Source: a virus. Taken from it: a stretch of DNA of 25,525 nt. The position numbers and the translations under genes were made by a program. Positions 11,022 through 22,163 of this stretch are shown here, one piece after another; position 1 is the first letter of the stretch; every line of letters starts with the position of its first letter. The notes under the pieces were generated by a model that saw nothing but the letters and a program-made list of their open reading frames with translations, did not search any database and had not been told where the DNA came from. The stretch is from IMG/VR virus record IMGVR_UViG_3300045999_003294, positions 1 through 25,525 of that record. One strand, written 5' to 3'.

Positions 11022-11398
11022 GCCTCACCGCTCGCGACCGAAAGCGTCTGGAGGGCGTCCATCCCGACCTCGTCCGCGTGGTCGAGCGCGCGTCGATGGG
11101 GACGGTGAGGTTCATCGTCACCGAGGGCGTCCGAACGATGGAACGCCAGGCGCAACTAGCGCGCGAAGGCCGCTCTCAGACAATGCGCTCGCGCCATCTG
11201 ACCGGCCACGCGGTCGATCTCGCGGTGCTGGACGACGACGGAAAAGCGCGCTGGGATGCGCCGGCATACCGCGCGCTCGCCGCCGAAATGAAGGCGGCGG
11301 CGGCGGTAGAAGGTGTTCCTATTGGTTGGGGTGGTGATTTTCGCGGCTTCTTTGACGGTCCGCATTTCCAACTGCCGTGGGATCGCTACCCCGCCTAG
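11018..11398 (+). CDS. Endolysin, M15-family zinc peptidase
   Basis: 126 aa from the ATG at 11018. The zinc motif S-x-H-x-x-G-x-A-x-D is present as SRHLTGHAVD (58-67, ligands His60 and Asp67). The third ligand is in DGPHFQLP (His116). This is the L-alanyl-D-glutamate / D-Ala-D-Ala peptidase fold of T5-like endolysins, which cut peptide bonds in peptidoglycan. There is no signal peptide, so release should depend on the holin gene just upstream. The length is normal for single-domain phage M15 enzymes. Its TAG stop overlaps the TAG stop of the opposing gene at CTAG. Confidence 0.92.
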   Translation: MSLTARDRKRLEGVHPDLVRVVERASMGTVRFIVTEGVRTMERQAQLAREGRSQTMRSRHLTGHAVDLAVLDDDGKARWDAPAYRALAAEMKAAAAVEGVPIGWGGDFRGFFDGPHFQLPWDRYPA

Positions 11399-11661
11399 CT
11401 GTATCCCGACTTGTCGCGCGCCTCGATCTCCATCGGATGCCGCCAGTATCCATACCGCGCCAGCCACCAGAGATACCGCGCCGCGAAGCCCCACGCGCCG
11501 TAACGCTGGACCTGCTCAAGGTGGACCTCTTCGTGGGCAACCAACCCGTGGTCGGGAGGCCACGCGGCGTAATACGCGACGCCCCAGGGCATCGTGATCG
11601 CCGCGTAGCCGGTGGCCTTGAGCCACCAGCGGATGACGAGCGGGGCGGGGCGGTGGGTCAC
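11395..11661 (-). CDS. Small HExxH zincin-like protein
   Basis: 88 aa from a GTG at 11661. GTG is preferred because GGGAGG (11669-11674 on the complement) sits 7 bases upstream and the GTGA overlaps the previous stop; an in-frame ATG at 11676 would use the Shine-Dalgarno as codons. A hydrophobic stretch (about 11-35) precedes VAHEEVHLEQVQRYG, which contains the HExxH zinc-peptidase motif. HPMEIEAR near the C-terminus could give the third ligand. Substrate is unknown; proteins of this shape are common in phages. The first 10 codons (MTHRPAPLVI) are duplicated 484 bp upstream in the operon. Confidence 0.68.
   Translation of the reverse strand: MTHRPAPLVIRWWLKATGYAAITMPWGVAYYAAWPPDHGLVAHEEVHLEQVQRYGAWGFAARYLWWLARYGYWRHPMEIEARDKSGYS
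11632..11660. repeat. 29-bp direct repeat, copy A
   Basis: Identical over 29 bases to 12116-12144. On the minus strand it begins with the TGA stop of the XF1762-family gene and continues as codons 1-10 of the HExxH protein. Together with copy B it brackets the XF1762 gene exactly. Confidence 0.93.
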
Positions 11662-12113
11662 GATGCTGCCTCCCATCTGATTTTCGCTTGTCCTACGGTC
11701 GATTGCCATTCGCGCCCTGGCCGGTTCTGCCATTGATCTGCCCGGTTCGCCGGAAGTTCCGCGACAATTTTCCATCCAGCACCGCGCAGACTTGCGCCGC
11801 TTTCGGTTTGCAATGTGTATGTGATGAGCTTGCGATATCCCAGCGCCTTTGCGGCTCTCCAACACGTCTGGTAAAGGGCCGAGCAAGACCCCTTTGGCGC
11901 TCCGTCGTTTACGCAAAGCCGCAGCACTTCCAGCGTCAGCCCGTCCTGCATCATCCGCGCGACTGGACGCCCGACGATTGCCACGCCGACGAGCCTCTCT
12001 CCGTCCGACGCTCCGACAGAAAACTTGTGGCCGACCGGCGGTTTGTTGTGTCGATGGAAGGCAGCGACGAAACTCTGCGCCTCTGCCAACGACATCGGGA
12101 CAATCGTGATCAT
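11658..12113 (-). CDS. XF1762-family protein (GNAT-like)
   Basis: 151 aa from the ATG at 12113. The sequence contains the family features FHRHNKPPVGHKFSVG (about 20-35), GVAIVGRPVARMM, TLEVLRLCVND, YQTCWRAAKALGYRKLITYTL and SGASLRGAGW. These describe a small acetyltransferase-like fold seen in many phages and prophages, and the substrate is not known. The gene lies between two copies of a 29-bp repeat and its stop TGA belongs to copy A. Base composition is less GC-rich than its neighbours (for example around 11750-11860). Both facts suggest it was inserted into the operon. Confidence 0.78.
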   Translation of the reverse strand: MITIVPMSLAEAQSFVAAFHRHNKPPVGHKFSVGASDGERLVGVAIVGRPVARMMQDGLTLEVLRLCVNDGAPKGSCSALYQTCWRAAKALGYRKLITYTLQTESGASLRGAGWKIVAELPANRADQWQNRPGREWQSTVGQAKIRWEAAS

Positions 12114-12145
12114 TAGATGACGAGCGGGGCGGGGCGGTGGGTCAT
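12113..12145 (-). pseudogene. 10-codon remnant of the HExxH gene start
   Basis: ATG at 12145 overlaps the previous stop (ATGA) and has GGAGG 7 bases upstream. It encodes MTHRPAPLVI and then TAA, which itself overlaps the XF1762 ATG (TAATG at 12111-12115). It matches the first ten residues of the downstream HExxH protein. It may still be translated as a short leader that couples translation into the XF1762 gene. Confidence 0.7.
12116..12144. repeat. 29-bp direct repeat, copy B
   Basis: Second copy of 11632-11660. On the minus strand it starts with the TGA stop of the upstream gene and encodes MTHRPAPLVI, then runs into a TAA instead of continuing into the HExxH protein. Confidence 0.93.
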
Positions 12146-12157
12146 GGCTTGGCCTCC
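12142..12157. repeat. 16-bp gene-junction repeat, copy 1
   Basis: Identical to 12342-12357, exactly 200 bp away. On the minus strand each copy holds a GGAGG Shine-Dalgarno, the codons for the last residues (AKP) of one gene, and the overlapping ATGA that starts the next. Confidence 0.88.
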
Positions 12158-12345
12158 AGCGCAGCGCGGGCGTAGGCTCCGGTTGCATTATAGCCGTTGT
12201 ATTCATCCTCGGCGTAACGGGTCAGAGCAGTTTCCATCACCGCCACGCGGGCGCGCAGCCGCTCGATCTCGGTAGCGGCCTCCTCCATATCGGACTCGGT
12301 CGGCTCCGCGTCCAATCGCAATCTCTTCACGATGTCCGCGCTCAT
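12142..12345 (-). CDS. Small coiled-coil hypothetical protein
   Basis: 67 aa. The central part (DMEEAATEIERLRARVAVMETAL) is a short coiled coil, a plan shared by many small phage early proteins whose function is unknown. The C-terminus AALEAKP ends in the same AKP-stop as the upstream neighbour, because the two genes share a 16-bp junction sequence. ATGA overlap with the gene before; strong GGAGG Shine-Dalgarno. Confidence 0.7.
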   Translation of the reverse strand: MSADIVKRLRLDAEPTESDMEEAATEIERLRARVAVMETALTRYAEDEYNGYNATGAYARAALEAKP

Positions 12346-12357
12346 GGCTTGGCCTCC
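12342..12357. repeat. 16-bp gene-junction repeat, copy 2
   Basis: Second copy of 12142-12157, at the junction of the Ala/Tyr-repeat gene and the 67-aa coiled-coil gene. Confidence 0.88.
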
Positions 12358-12842
12358 CTCATCTCGCGGCAGATGCGCCGCAATTCATCGGCTTGCGCGG
12401 CGCATTCGGCGAAACGACCTACATAAACCGACCTCTCAGCCGCATACGCCGTCGCATACGCCGCCGCATACGCCGTCGCATACGCCGTCGCAGCCGCAGC
12501 CCACGCTGTAGCCTCGCCCGACCGCGCCGCCTCCAACTCCTCGTCGCTCGCCTCGCCGCGAGCATGGCGCTCGGCGACATCGAGGGCGGCGATGGAGCGC
12601 GCGCCGACCATCAGATGCTGGACGCGTCGCGCGCACCAGACCGCATAAAGCCGGATCTCGCGGTCGCAGCCCTCGACGGCTCGCAGGCACCAGAGCGCGT
12701 TGCTCAGACTGTTGCAGTCGAGGATCTGGTCAATCCACAGCGGCTCATCGTCAGCCTGGGTCTTGCCCAGGCCACGCAGCAGCTTCTCCCAACCGTCGCG
12801 GCAGGGGCTGTGCTCGCGGATCTTGTTGAGGGTGGTTTTCAT
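12342..12842 (-). CDS. Phage protein with Ala/Tyr repeat (function unknown)
   Basis: 166 aa. The N-terminal half has a recognisable conserved core: LSNALWCLRAVEG, EIRLYAVWCARRVQHLM and SIAALDVAERHARGEASDEEL. This core occurs in many phage hypothetical proteins. The C-terminal half is a helical low-complexity stretch built on TAYATAYAAAYATAYA (about 119-134), followed by a charged helix. The repeat is encoded by a 12-bp tandem array. No enzyme motif is visible. It sits in the leftward operon with ATGA junctions on both sides. Confidence 0.72.
   Translation of the reverse strand: MKTTLNKIREHSPCRDGWEKLLRGLGKTQADDEPLWIDQILDCNSLSNALWCLRAVEGCDREIRLYAVWCARRVQHLMVGARSIAALDVAERHARGEASDEELEAARSGEATAWAAAATAYATAYAAAYATAYAAERSVYVGRFAECAAQADELRRICREMREAKP
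12441..12488. repeat. 12-bp tandem repeat, 4 copies, coding
   Basis: Four units of CGCATACGCCG(T/C) in a row. They encode the Ala/Tyr/Thr repeat of the overlapping minus-strand gene in frame, so unit number can change without frameshift. Confidence 0.9.
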
Positions 12843-13015
12843 CGCCCATCCTCCGCCTCAACGACCGCCAGCCCCGCGCGCCGCACGGTCTCCAGCGTGT
12901 CCTTCCAGCGCTCGATGGCGTGGCGCTGAAAATGCGGGGTCACCCGCGCCCAGAACTCCTCGCCCACATCCGCCCGCGCTAGGCGGGCGGCGAGGGTGGT
13001 AATGTCGGTGGTCAT
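12839..13015 (-). CDS. Small hypothetical protein
   Basis: 58 aa from the ATG at 13015, with GGGAGGG a few bases upstream inside the preceding gene. It reads MTTDITTLAARLARAD and then EEFWARVTPHFQRHAIERW, a helical acidic-basic protein with no known motif. ATGA overlaps on both sides fit a genuine operon member. Confidence 0.6.
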   Translation of the reverse strand: MTTDITTLAARLARADVGEEFWARVTPHFQRHAIERWKDTLETVRRAGLAVVEAEDGR

Positions 13016-14873: not shown

Positions 14874-15143
14874 TCAGGCGTGCATCGAGACATGACAGCT
14901 AAGAGGGTTGTGCCAGCCGCGACGTGCCGCACGCTCTGCCGCCTCGCGCGCCTCCAGCCACGTCTTCGCGAGCCCGGTCATTCCGACCTCGCAATCGAGG
15001 CGGTCAAATTGGCGGTGGTACTCGGCCTCGGCCTGGCGCGGCGTGCAGCGCGCTTCGGCGAACACCTTCATCGCGGCCTCCTCGGCGCGAAAATGATCTT
15101 CCGCGGTGTCAATGGCGCTGCCGTGGATCTGGATCGAGATCAT
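14874..15143 (-). CDS. Small hypothetical protein
   Basis: 89 aa from the ATG at 15143, chosen because GGAGGACCAGCAG stands just upstream; the open frame reaches further back only through the leader. It begins MISIQIHGSAIDTAEDHF and then has a long charged helix (AEARCTPRQAEAEYHRQFDRL shown in part). No motif recognised. Confidence 0.6.
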   Translation of the reverse strand: MISIQIHGSAIDTAEDHFRAEEAAMKVFAEARCTPRQAEAEYHRQFDRLDCEVGMTGLAKTWLEAREAAERAARRGWHNPLSCHVSMHA

Positions 15144-15156
15144 CTGCTGGTCCTCC
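15138..15156. repeat. 19-bp ribosome-site repeat, copy 1
   Basis: Identical to 15353-15371. On the minus strand it holds GGAGG, a 7-base spacer, and the first codons ATGATC of the 89-aa gene. Confidence 0.88.
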
Positions 15157-15169
15157 TCTGTCTGATCGA

Positions 15170-15358
15170 TCAGGCCGCGACCGCGCGGCGGATGTAGCAA
15201 ATCTGCGCGGCGGTCAGGGCGTGGCAGGTGGTGTAGTGGCCCGCGAGGTCGTCATAGACCCGCACGGTGCCATTGGCATCGACGCTCGCGCGGTAGCCGG
15301 TGCCGGGGGCGTCGCACGAAAACGCGCGACCGCTGCGGACGGTGATGTACTGGATCAT
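15170..15358 (-). CDS. Small hypothetical protein, first gene of the leftward operon
   Basis: 62 aa from the ATG at 15358, with the same GGAGGACCAGCAG leader as the next gene. It starts MIQYITVRSGRAF and has beta-like strands and a short C-terminal helix (TAAQICYIRRAVAA). Four Cys/His positions are present without a clear finger pattern. As the first gene after the divergent promoter it would be the earliest leftward product. Confidence 0.6.
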   Translation of the reverse strand: MIQYITVRSGRAFSCDAPGTGYRASVDANGTVRVYDDLAGHYTTCHALTAAQICYIRRAVAA

Positions 15359-15371
15359 CTGCTGGTCCTCC
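15353..15371. repeat. 19-bp ribosome-site repeat, copy 2
   Basis: Second copy of 15138-15156, at the start of the 62-aa gene. A looser third version (GGAGGACAGCAAACATG) precedes the gene starting at 14792. Confidence 0.88.
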
Positions 15372-17692: not shown

Positions 17693-19283
17693 GTTCCCAT
17701 CTCCTTTTGATCACCCGAAAGAACTTGCCGTCCTGGCGATACTCGATCTCGCGCGGAGGCGTTGCGTTCGACAGCATGGATGCCGTCTGCTCGATATCGA
17801 ATAACTCCTCATCGTTCCAATCGACGCCGGCACTCGCCGCCATTTTCACAAGCTGGCCTCGGCTCTTCTGCCCCGCATATCCGTCATGCATCACGGGCAG
17901 ATACTCAACCACGACGGACGCCGCGTAGTCGGCTGGATAGTACGAGACAGCCAGCATCTCCTTCCCGCTTGTCCGGCTGATATGCTTTCGCCACGACCAA
18001 TTCTTGACGGCCATCGTCTTGCCGTCCTGCCCCATGATGTCGTCGTCACGCAGCTCTAGCTTGACCGGCTGCATCTGCCATTCGTGCCCGCAGACCGGGC
18101 ACTTTCGCACGGACAACGCCACCACCTCGTCGCAGTTCGGACAGGTCTTGGTCGGTGCCTTCTTCTCCTCCGGTCCTTTTCCAGGCTTGCGCGGCGGCTG
18201 AACCGCGATGATCGGACCGTGTGTCGCCACGCATCCGGCGAAGTCGAGGACAAGGCAGTCCTTGGCCTTGCTCTTCAGCCGCATTCCGCGACCGACCATC
18301 TGGACGTAGAGGCCGGGTGAGCATGTAGGCCGCAGCAGGGCAATTAGGTCGATGTCTGGATAGTCGAAGCCGGTGGTCAGGACGTTGGCGTTGGTCAGCG
18401 CGCGAACCCGGCCAGCGCGGAAGTCAGAGATGATCCGATCGCGCTCGGCTGGCGGCGTATCGCCAAGCACACATTCAGCCGTGATCCCGCGCTTCCGCAA
18501 CTCGTCGCGCACGCGCTCGGCGTGACGAACGCCGGTGCAGAAAAACAGCCACGCTTTCCGCCCCTCGGATCGAGCGATGACCTCATCGACGGTCGAGGTG
18601 TTCAACGCGTCGGTATCAGCTGCGGCCTGTAGTTCGGCCTCGATGTACTCGCCGCCTCGCTTGTGGACGCCGCCGACATCGATCTTCGCCGCTGTCGCCT
18701 TTGATCGCAGTGGCGAAAGGAAGCCCTTATAGATCAACTCTTCTACGCTGACGGGCTCGATCAGATCCCAGAACAGCGCGGGCGCATCTGTGATCATGCC
18801 GTGCCCGAGGCGATACGGTGTCGCCGTGAGACCGACCACGCGCAGGGCCGGATTGACCTTCGCCAGATGATCGATCAGCACACGATAGCTGCCCTGCTGC
18901 TTGTGATTGACGAGGTGGCATTCATCTATGATGACCAGATCGACATGGCCTATCCTGTCGATCTGGCTGATGATCGATTGAATGCCGGCGAAGGTGATCG
19001 GCTCGTCAAGCTGGCGGCGACGCAAGCTGGCCGAGTAGATCCCGAGCGGCGCGCCAGGCCAGTGCTGGCGCATCTTCTCGGCGTTCTGCTGGATCAACTC
19101 CTTCACATGCGTGAGCATGAGAATGCGCGTCTCGGGCCAGTTCTGAACGGCGTCTTTGCATAACGCCGCGACGATGTGGCTCTTGCCCGAGCCTGTCGGC
19201 AGGACAAGGCACGGGTGACCGGCGTTCTTTTCGAGCCACGCATAGAGCATGTCGATGGCGCGGCGTTGATATTCACGCAGCAT
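17673..19283 (-). CDS. SF2 DEAD/DEAH-box helicase
   Basis: 536 aa from the ATG at 19283. Motifs in order: Q-like MLREYQRRAID, Walker A PTGSGKS (29-35), DECH (120-123), TATPYR (153-158), and the second RecA-like domain with LTTGFDYPDIDLI and QMVGRGMRL. A Cys4 zinc ribbon follows (CPNCDEVV...CPVCGHEW, around 410-430) and a C-terminal domain of about 100 residues. This is the RecG/UvsW-UvrB-like helicase type common in phage recombination modules. It should remodel branched DNA using ATP. The start overlaps the nuclease gene upstream, fitting co-translation. Confidence 0.92.
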   Translation of the reverse strand: MLREYQRRAIDMLYAWLEKNAGHPCLVLPTGSGKSHIVAALCKDAVQNWPETRILMLTHVKELIQQNAEKMRQHWPGAPLGIYSASLRRRQLDEPITFAGIQSIISQIDRIGHVDLVIIDECHLVNHKQQGSYRVLIDHLAKVNPALRVVGLTATPYRLGHGMITDAPALFWDLIEPVSVEELIYKGFLSPLRSKATAAKIDVGGVHKRGGEYIEAELQAAADTDALNTSTVDEVIARSEGRKAWLFFCTGVRHAERVRDELRKRGITAECVLGDTPPAERDRIISDFRAGRVRALTNANVLTTGFDYPDIDLIALLRPTCSPGLYVQMVGRGMRLKSKAKDCLVLDFAGCVATHGPIIAVQPPRKPGKGPEEKKAPTKTCPNCDEVVALSVRKCPVCGHEWQMQPVKLELRDDDIMGQDGKTMAVKNWSWRKHISRTSGKEMLAVSYYPADYAASVVVEYLPVMHDGYAGQKSRGQLVKMAASAGVDWNDEELFDIEQTASMLSNATPPREIEYRQDGKFFRVIKRRWERDEATA

Positions 19284-20253
19284 CGGTCTCTCCGAGGATC
19301 TCGCGGCTTGAATACACGTTCGCATCGGCCTCGCCGTTGGCGACCATCGCGCCGTCGATCTCCCATAGCGCCACCCATTCGATGCCGCTGTCGTGCAGCT
19401 TCCACGGCACCAGATCAGGGTGGAACACATGCGAAGGGCAAGCCGCGCGCTGCGCGTCTGACGGGATCACCTCGTCCTCCCATCGCGCGCATCGCCATTG
19501 CCCATCTCCGCCTGGCGTCGAGTGCGCGCATGTCCGGCAATTGATCTCCCTCGTCTTGCGTGAGCCGTGGCACATGTCGTGGGCCGGGCAGAACTTGCAC
19601 TCGTACCAGGACGGATCATCGCTGATGCCGGTCGGCATTCGCTCGGCCAGCGCGATCCTTGCGCCGCGCTCGATGTATTTCTCGGCGATGGCTTGATCGC
19701 GCTCGACGCGCTCGACGTGCAACCGGTCGTCATCTTTGCATACGGCGACATAAAGAGCGCGCTCTATCCCCATGCCGTGCATGTAGGCTTGCATCTGGAC
19801 ATGGTGCAGCGGCTTGGATTTCGCTACGCCGTTCGCCGCGAGGTCGTCGAACGACTTTCGCGCATGCGTCTTGAACTCGGCCACATGCCGCGCCTTCGGC
19901 GCTTCTGGAACGCCGCTGTCGATGATGGCGTCGAGCGATCCACCGACATGCGGCGCAAGCTCGACGCGATACTGGCGTCCGTCTGGCATCCGATCATGCA
20001 CCACGCATCCTATGGCACGCAGATCCGCGATGATCGACGCCTCCTCGTTATGGCCGCGCCGGAACAGCCGCCGGATGCGACCGGGGATCTGCTCGCGGAA
20101 TGCCCAGCGAAAGCTGAGCCACAGATATCGCTCGCACTTGTGCCCGAGCATCGATGCGCCAAGGTGGTCGCGATGTGGGTCGTCGGCTATCGCTTCGTGA
20201 TGCTTGTCAATGAGCGCCACGGTGCTATGATTGGCCTCGGGAACTGTCGCCAT
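19273..20253 (-). CDS. PD-(D/E)XK nuclease, RecB/Cas4-like with Fe-S cysteines
   Basis: 326 aa from the ATG at 20253, with GGAGGAGG upstream. Nuclease core: RGH (66-68), GGSLDAIID (Asp108), EFKTH (Glu126, Lys128) and QMQAYM (151-156). A lone Cys at 40 plus C219, C222 and C228 (CKFCPAHDMC) match the four-cysteine iron-sulphur staple of Cas4/AddB-type nucleases. A further Cys set follows (CRTCAHSTPGGDGQWRCARW), possibly a zinc site. Likely role: 5'-3' or 3'-5' exonuclease preparing ends for annealing by the Sak4-type ATPase encoded in the same operon. Confidence 0.88.
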   Translation of the reverse strand: MATVPEANHSTVALIDKHHEAIADDPHRDHLGASMLGHKCERYLWLSFRWAFREQIPGRIRRLFRRGHNEEASIIADLRAIGCVVHDRMPDGRQYRVELAPHVGGSLDAIIDSGVPEAPKARHVAEFKTHARKSFDDLAANGVAKSKPLHHVQMQAYMHGMGIERALYVAVCKDDDRLHVERVERDQAIAEKYIERGARIALAERMPTGISDDPSWYECKFCPAHDMCHGSRKTREINCRTCAHSTPGGDGQWRCARWEDEVIPSDAQRAACPSHVFHPDLVPWKLHDSGIEWVALWEIDGAMVANGEADANVYSSREILGETDAA

Positions 20254-20316: not shown

Positions 20317-20814
20317 TCAGACCTTGCGCGCCCACGGCGGAGCAGCGCGAGACGGCGCAGCAGCGGGCGCAGACATGGCGGGCTTGCTCGCCGCCATCGG
20401 CTGCGGCAACTGCCCCTTCGCGAGTGGCATCGTCGCCGCCACCTCGTTGCGCGGGCCGTATTCGTCGGACTGCTTCACCGCGACCTTGATCTCGGCTTCG
20501 CCGCCGATCAGCTGATCCGTGTCCTGCACCGCTGCGAGCCCGATCGCCCGCATGATCTCGCCAAGCTGGCGACGACCGATCTCCTCGGCCGCTGACGACT
20601 GATTGCGTATGTTCAAGTTTTGGAACACCACGCGCCCTTGGTGCGCGGGGCCGAGGATGTCCCACCGGACCTTGATGTATTCCCCGGTGCCGGACTTCGT
20701 GATTCCGACGCTGGCCTCGGTGATCTTGGCCTGATACTTCCCGGCCGGGATAGGATCGTAATTGCCCGAGGGCGGGAGGTCGTCAGCGCGGAACGATTGA
20801 TTGAGCAGAGCCAT
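20317..20814 (-). CDS. DUF669-type single-strand DNA-binding-like protein
   Basis: 165 aa. The N-terminal part (SGNYDPIPAGKYQAKITEAS, then GTGEYIKVRWDILGPAHQGR and RNQSSAAEEIGRRQLGEIMRAIG) is the DUF669 pattern, found beside RecA-like ATPases and helicases in phages and thought to bind single-stranded DNA. The C-terminal 35 residues are Ala/Pro-rich and end in PPWARKV; unlike a bacterial SSB tail, this end is basic. Co-located with recombinase, nuclease and helicase in one operon. Confidence 0.82.
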   Translation of the reverse strand: MALLNQSFRADDLPPSGNYDPIPAGKYQAKITEASVGITKSGTGEYIKVRWDILGPAHQGRVVFQNLNIRNQSSAAEEIGRRQLGEIMRAIGLAAVQDTDQLIGGEAEIKVAVKQSDEYGPRNEVAATMPLAKGQLPQPMAASKPAMSAPAAAPSRAAPPWARKV

Positions 20815-21231: not shown

Positions 21232-21436
21232 TCTCCGTCTCCTCTCCATACGAGACTCCCGCAGCCGCACGTTTCACATCAGCTGCATCTAAACGATATC
21301 GTCCCAGCACTTTGCGTGCAGGAAGCCTCCCGTCCTTGATGGCCCGGCGAACTGTGTTTTGGATAACGCCTAGCTCGCTGGCCGCTTGCGCGACAGTCAA
21401 GCTTGCAGACTGATGTTTATTGTCTTTGCGTTTCAT
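21221..21436 (-). CDS. Excisionase-type HTH protein
   Basis: 71 aa from the ATG at 21436. After a basic start (MKRKDNKHQ) comes SLTVAQAASELGVIQNTVRRAIKDGRLPARKVLGRYRL (quoted here as the motif span, about residues 12-48), the winged helix of the MerR/Xis-like excisionase family. It sits between the recombinase and the helper genes, far from any integrase. It may be a transcription regulator rather than a true excisionase. Overlaps: ATGA with the ATPase stop, 11 bases with the next gene. Confidence 0.8.
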   Translation of the reverse strand: MKRKDNKHQSASLTVAQAASELGVIQNTVRRAIKDGRLPARKVLGRYRLDAADVKRAAAGVSYGEETENVG

Positions 21437-22113
21437 GCATTGTCTCCTTGGATCTTGCGAATGATTGCCCCAAGGTCTGGGGCTTCCCACGCGGCCAGCT
21501 TCCCGCTGCGGTCCTTTGCTTGCCAAAGCCCATCGCTGTCGCACATCAGTGCGCGTTGCGATGCGCCCTCGGGATCGCGCTCGACGCGCAACGCGAGAAC
21601 CTCGTCGAAGAAGTAAGGCAGGGCTTGGCCGGTCTTGTTTCCCGGCATCGATGGGGCATACAAGACGCGCCCCATCTCGTCCTGGGTCTTCTCGACTTTG
21701 GCGCTCATGTACACATGCCGCCCAGGCAGATCGCGAAAGGACCGAATGATGTCGGTCATCTGCTCCTGCATCGCGCCGTACGCTTGGCGCGGATCTTTGG
21801 TCGCCTTCTTCTCGGCGTTGAGGCACACCTCAGCAATCTCGCTGATGCTGTCGAGCGCCACCGATTTAAACTCGCTCGCCTCGGCGCTGCTCGCCAGCCA
21901 CGACCATGCTTCGCGCAGCGTGGTCATGTCGGAGACCTCGATATACGGGAGATCGGCGTCCTGAATGGACAGCAGACCTCCCTCGGCTGACAGCACGATC
22001 GGTGCGGGCAGCGTCTTGATGAGCGTCGTTTTACCTGCGCCAGCCTGTCCATACACCAACAGCTTGACGCCATTGGCGGACAGACCGCTGGTGCGGCTGA
22101 TCCTGATTGCCAT
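21433..22113 (-). CDS. Sak4-type RecA-like ATPase (phage recombinase)
   Basis: 226 aa from the ATG at 22113, preceded by AAGGAAG. Walker A is GQAGAGKTT (22-30), Walker B is in FKSVALDSIS (82-91), and the downstream part has KKATKDPRQAYGAMQEQM and HVYMSAKVEKTQDEMGR. This is the short RecA core of the Sak4/AAA_24 group that works with single-strand binding proteins to anneal DNA. The neighbours (DUF669-type, Cas4-like nuclease, helicase, RusA) form a full recombination set. First gene after the promoter at 22165-22194. Confidence 0.88.
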   Translation of the reverse strand: MAIRISRTSGLSANGVKLLVYGQAGAGKTTLIKTLPAPIVLSAEGGLLSIQDADLPYIEVSDMTTLREAWSWLASSAEASEFKSVALDSISEIAEVCLNAEKKATKDPRQAYGAMQEQMTDIIRSFRDLPGRHVYMSAKVEKTQDEMGRVLYAPSMPGNKTGQALPYFFDEVLALRVERDPEGASQRALMCDSDGLWQAKDRSGKLAAWEAPDLGAIIRKIQGDNA

Positions 22114-22163
22114 GATGGTTCTTCCTTTTCCCGCCAGTCGGACCATTCCGGTCGGCGTTCCAA

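Follow-up and report, generated by a model that had tools for sequence, protein, structure and literature searches.

Identical repeats bracket an XF1762-family gene

The locus raises the question of how a single gene came to lie between two identical copies of the start of the gene that follows it. The window, i.e. the whole stretch of DNA analysed, is a virus record and spans 25,525 bases. Its minus strand carries a 166-aa gene, a 67-aa gene, a short leader containing repeat copy B, an XF1762-family gene, and a gene for a HExxH protein with repeat copy A at its start; beyond the latter, an M15 peptidase and a GTA-type holin are encoded on the opposite strand (Table 1). The XF1762 gene matches NCBIfam XF1762_fam (NF045478) with E = 3.7e-55 and 185.7 bits, above the cut-off of 50, and the PHROG of Mom-like DNA modification proteins with E 5.5e-35; its score against Pfam Mom (PF25680) is 20.7 bits, below the gathering cut-off of 27.1. 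The sole match of the HExxH protein is a PHROG of unknown function, and its predicted structure has a mean pLDDT of 68.5, with an N-terminus of low confidence.

Copies A and B are the same at 29 of 29 positions and are spaced 484 bp apart; no exact direct repeat in the window is longer. In 200 simulated first-order Markov sequences of the same composition, no repeat exceeded 18 bp, and the longest averaged 15.4 bp. Read along the minus strand, copy B is ATG ACC CAC CGC CCC GCC CCG CTC GTC ATC TAA, i.e. 10 codons and a stop; this TAA shares its last base with the start of XF1762 (TAATG, ATG at 12113-12111). Copy A holds the HExxH start, now GTG (11661-11659), which overlaps the XF1762 stop TGA (11660-11658). 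A preliminary description of the locus had read copy B as the first ten HExxH residues followed by TAA, and copy A as the working HExxH start, and both readings agree with what we see. It had also stated that the identical copies flank the gene exactly. The identity holds; since copy A and the XF1762 stop overlap by 3 nt and a gap of 2 nt separates copy B from the XF1762 ATG, the bracketing is exact to within a codon. Two near-identical direct repeats flanking exactly one gene are also a feature of the Island3/Brujita type of insertion discussed below.

Table 1. Coordinates of the insertion locus, its neighbouring array genes and the candidate recombination genes of the window
Feature	Position	Strand	Remarks
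HExxH gene	11395..11661	(-)	88 aa, HEEVH; insertion site is its 5′ end
Repeat copy A	11632-11660	(-)	29 bp; codons 1-10 of HExxH gene minus first base
XF1762-family (Mom-like) gene, inserted	11658..12113	(-)	151 aa
XF1762 3′ tail	11662..11674	(-)	Shine-Dalgarno GGGAGG (11669-11674) for HExxH GTG; same in L038 homologue
Leader ORF MTHRPAPLVI* (old HExxH start)	12113..12145	(-)	10 codons; TAATG onto XF1762 start
Repeat copy B	12116-12144	(-)	29 bp; identical to copy A
67-aa array gene	12142..12345	(-)	shared EIERLRARV coil
Border GGAGGCCAAGCCATGA	12142..12157	(-)	end of 67-aa gene / start of leader
166-aa array gene	12342..12842	(-)	phrog_18326, unknown function
Border GGAGGCCAAGCCATGA, second copy	12342..12357	(-)	end of 166-aa gene / start of 67-aa gene
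Cas4-domain / RecE-like exonuclease	19273..20250	(-)	phrog_1990, E 8.7e-100
SSB-like protein (DUF669)	20317..20814	(-)	
Sak4-like single-strand annealing protein, candidate recombinase	21433..22116	(-)	phrog_124, E 5.3e-54; Pfam AAA_24

Most relatives carry an empty site

A search with the HExxH protein yielded 32 related IMG/VR contigs, all of them, like the window, metagenomic assemblies. An empty site, with one copy of the 5′-end and no XF1762 gene before HExxH, was found in 27 of the 32 (L033 was matched by the HExxH start segment alone, which is why 27 are counted as empty). In most relatives an upstream gene closing with GGAGGCCAAGCC, or with a near variant of it, leads via ATGA straight into HExxH (...GGAGGCCAAGCC|ATGACCCACCGCCCC), the empty junction being GGAGGCCAAGCCATGACCCACCGC...ATCCGCTGG; HExxH starts with ATG in these empty-site relatives and with GTG in the window. 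The preliminary description had placed the insertion of the unit at the start of the HExxH gene and had suggested looking for versions lacking the 484 bp. Such versions exist, and their single-copy sites support the insertion. It had further expected the 67-aa gene to run directly into HExxH: direct joins of an upstream gene to HExxH were observed, and the 67-aa gene need not have been the original neighbour because the gene now upstream was exchanged after insertion. Some of the empty sites might have arisen later, through deletion between the repeats, and would then not be ancestral.

The order leader, XF1762, HExxH was found in the window and, among the 32 contigs, only in L003, L004, L009 and L026; copy B of L026 differs by one base. 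Scanning IMG/VR for the leader-XF1762 join returned the same four contigs and revealed no gene other than XF1762 behind the leader. No relatives of HExxH were confirmed in 84,980 bacterial and archaeal genomes, and in GenBank phages the matches were confined to single genes, at 60-80%.

The same cassette sits on different backbones

Across all carriers the leader is 97-100% and XF1762 90-99% identical (L004 repeats L003 in this comparison), and between the window, L009 and L026 the XF1762 cassette is 98-99% identical. Upstream of the leader the sequence is unrelated in every pair of carriers (48-52%), and the rest of HExxH is just 78-91% identical. The three upstream types of the carriers are also joined directly to HExxH, in the empty-site contigs L002, L027 and L016. 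The carrier L026 and the empty L028 are 97.3% identical over 3497 bp, with the match beginning exactly where the repeat does, at L026:4002; since the L028 contig starts 62 bp upstream, this comparison is one-sided, the near-identity being seen on the right.

In a tree built from holin and M15, the carriers do not form one clade: the window and L009 are sisters (96%), L003 and L004 belong to another clade, and L026 has a different backbone, without the holin and M15 genes. The insertion scar is common to the window and four contigs on at least three backbones and is not private to one phage; the same XF1762 cassette sits in different phages and ends at the repeats.

Translation may pass through both joins

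The computed anti-Shine-Dalgarno pairing with the 16S tail amounts to -9.3 kcal/mol for the leader, -1.5 for XF1762 and -10.2 for HExxH, with a background median of -3.9; by this measure the XF1762 start lacks its own Shine-Dalgarno. The old HExxH start had been proposed to survive as a 10-codon leader, and such a leader, ending in TAATG, can indeed be read in copy B. Stop-start overlaps, likewise noted before, are present at both joins (TAATG on the left, TGA/GTG on the right). The leader would keep the old HExxH start and ribosome site, ribosomes ending at TAA would restart at the XF1762 ATG, and the XF1762 tail (GGGAGG...GTG) would start HExxH, so that all joins would stay translated. As pairing is weak before XF1762 and strong before the leader, XF1762 expression probably relies on ribosomes re-initiating at TAATG after completing the leader. 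The site shows how an operon may take up a gene while translation on both sides stays intact.

A shared border marks junctions of the neighbouring gene array

The ATGA end of the 67-aa gene falls at the leader start, and the 16-bp border found there, GGAGGCCAAGCCATGA, recurs throughout the array. Among the 33 HExxH-selected loci we counted 92 copies on the array strand and 0 on the other, with one mismatch allowed and near-identical contigs included. Allowing up to two mismatches and taking distinct contexts, there are 72 distinct junctions, which have coil genes and members of 26 non-coil families on their flanks. The ends of homologous segments lie within 20 bp of the border in 44% (left) and 28% (right) of cases, compared with 11% expected and a maximum of 22% in 2,000 random placements. 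A shared sequence at junctions of unrelated genes and a concentration of breakpoints at that sequence, both features of boundary-sequence-mediated mosaicism, were found. These border counts rest on the HExxH-selected loci; an IMG/VR-wide pattern scan was set aside as biased towards the motif, with single copies that may be due to chance. A literature search on the border letters returned nothing relevant.

An EIERLRARV coil segment is common to many array proteins; split at this coil, 25 distinct genes give 24 combinations of N- and C-parts, several parts being reused. Mosaic coil proteins were noted at 12142-12345 of the window and in array genes of L002, L005, L008-L011, L015, L016, L022 and L032.

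The HExxH 5′-end is reused as well. It forms the start of a PAPS-reductase gene in L016 (MTHRPAPLPIRD...) and in L003 (MTNRPAPLPTRD...), and in L016 the PAPS-reductase gene is itself bracketed by two HExxH-type starts. A chimeric gene at L033:250 has the first 14 HExxH codons joined to an array-gene coil segment at the shared GGCTGCGCGCC. At fourfold sites, HExxH alleles diverge by 0.05 in codons 2-10, compared with 0.16 in codons 11-20 and 0.28-0.48 in the remainder; the low value in codons 2-10 could come from recombination or from constraint on the translation start. Tentatively, the array might be a working gene-shuffling system, a reading to which we give somewhat less than even weight. 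The shared border GGAGGCCAAGCCATGA, the start segment and the internal coil would let the phages' own annealing recombinase swap whole small genes or gene halves in frame, and XF1762 and the PAPS-reductase would be captured passengers.

Further repeated junctions were observed. A 19-bp repeat (GGAGGACCAGCAGATGATC, minus strand) stands at two neighbouring gene starts of the window, 15138-15156 and 15353-15371, and looks like a second border type; the border GGAGGATGGGCGATGA at 12839-12854 is another repeated junction class, present at several gene pairs in relatives. Among the matches listed, L122, L089, L174, L175, L147 and L160 carry GGAGGCCAAGCCATGA 3-9 times per contig, and in the stretches compared these six contigs show no clear relation to the structural genes of the window.

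How the joins were formed

The 29-bp repeats are very probably an insertion scar, left when XF1762 was joined into the HExxH start in an ancestral phage and later exchanged between phages. In that ancestor, XF1762 would have been joined after HExxH codon 10, with the left join at ATC|TAATG, and its own 3′ tail would have been linked to HExxH from the start codon's second base onwards, with the right join within the shared TGA. With joins at two points of HExxH, its first 29 bp are now present twice; two illegitimate joins at slightly different points could give this duplication with no special enzyme.

The nearest XF1762 homologue outside the carriers, in L038, is 73% identical at the amino acid level, and the original donor of XF1762 was not found. 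The 3′-ends of the two genes are GATGGGAGGCAACATCGTGATC in L038 and GATGGGAGGCAGCATCGTGACCC in the window, and the native XF1762 tail in L038 is GATGGGAGGCAACATCGTGA. Because the L038 homologue has the same tail, the Shine-Dalgarno and GTG of HExxH came with XF1762. The HExxH 5′-end was thus joined to the native XF1762 tail and not rebuilt base by base, and we abandon the earlier suggestion of a rebuilt 5′-end. In L009 a different standard border, GGAGGCCACCCCATGA, has taken the place of the right join.

The flanking copies match the conserved HExxH 5′-end of relatives, which suggests that XF1762 then passed between phages, with new upstream genes joined by short-homology recombination. As judged from gene content, the agent of these exchanges is most likely the phage's own candidate set of Sak4, SSB and exonuclease, which may act on the repeats. 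Together with its SSB, Sak4 anneals single strands and supports recombineering (PMC5928155).

Other origins of the repeats were considered. Copy B might be the remnant of a full tandem HExxH duplicate, most of whose first copy was later replaced by XF1762. Genes with the HExxH 5′-end do adjoin (PAPS reductase, leader and HExxH in L003), but two tandem HExxH genes occur in no contig and no carrier retains HExxH past codon 10 before XF1762, making this origin unlikely. Target-site duplication by a transposase or a homing-type nuclease would equally be expected to leave one gene between direct repeats and empty sites in relatives. We consider such an event highly improbable: the unit holds XF1762 alone, without a transposase or nuclease gene, and ends without terminal inverted repeats; XF1762 homologues elsewhere lack such repeats beside the gene; and no insertions with 29-bp duplications at unrelated targets were seen. 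A duplication of 29 bp is, moreover, long for a transposase. Insertion of a transposon or IS element was rejected, the unit having neither a transposase gene nor terminal inverted repeats.

The repeat could also be a conserved translation-start element, shared through selection and not through recombination, given that the gene start it holds adjoins a GGAGG ribosome site and that the border GGAGGCCAAGCCATGA combines a ribosome site with a stop-start overlap. However, the 7-nt spacer and codons 2-10 are unnecessary for initiation, and other genes of the window have other spacers, the border being present there in two copies. Nor would selection on starts account for the excess of left homology ends within 20 bp of borders (44% where 11% is expected and 22% is the maximum of 2000 trials), for an XF1762 that is 98% identical between phages with unrelated flanks, or for the transfer observed for the XF1762 cassette, whose breakpoints lie at the repeats. 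We regard this possibility as very unlikely, and retain insertion followed by exchange between phages as the preferred reading.

Relation to known systems

This kind of insertion is already known, and its closest precedent is the mycobacteriophage pair Island3 and Brujita, where 60-bp repeats bracket Island3 gene 68 and Brujita, a close relative, has a single recombinant copy without the gene (PMC3029335). Both cases share a single small gene between direct repeats and a relative with one copy and no gene. In Island3/Brujita the repeats lie at the 3′-ends of genes 67 and 68 in two near-identical genomes, whereas here they are the 5′-end of a gene, one copy now forms the 10-codon leader, and at least three backbones carry the same cassette.

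That border sequences serve as sites of homologous recombination is an old proposal (PMC3029335, PMC3974807). Like the short conserved phage boundary sequences cited there, the border described here is shared by junctions with different genes on either side; unlike them, one 16-bp border recurs often in one array in many phages, and homology breakpoints were measured at it. The SAS elements of Cluster K mycobacteriophages (consensus GGGATAGGAGCCC, 3-7 bp before the start; PMC3203893) are likewise repeated, non-palindromic, contain a ribosome site and stand in one orientation before small non-structural gene starts. In contrast to SAS, our border has another sequence, GGAGGCCAAGCC directly before ATGA and not GGGATAGGAGCCC, spans the upstream stop and the next start, and marks gene exchange. 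The PeSL of T4-like phages (Arbiol 2010, Comeau 2014), as far as the citing text of PMC4503421 describes it, is similarly a short repeated element proposed for small-gene shuffling, but consists of promoter-terminator motifs, whereas the junction here is a translational stop-start. The locus offers a traceable case, with one insertion, empty sites, later spread and breakpoints, and the array around it has dozens of shared borders, with genes for a candidate annealing system of the phage nearby.

Two further regions of the window were noted. The 166-aa gene contains 12-bp tandem repeats (GCATACGCCGYC) at 12439-12498, and the corresponding stretch in L003, L004 and L026 also looks repetitive. 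A tail-region protein at 8085-8975 matches a Pgp3 C-terminal domain (Pfam Chlam_vir, E 8e-7, above cut-off), and its identity among relatives varies strongly, from 58 to 99%.
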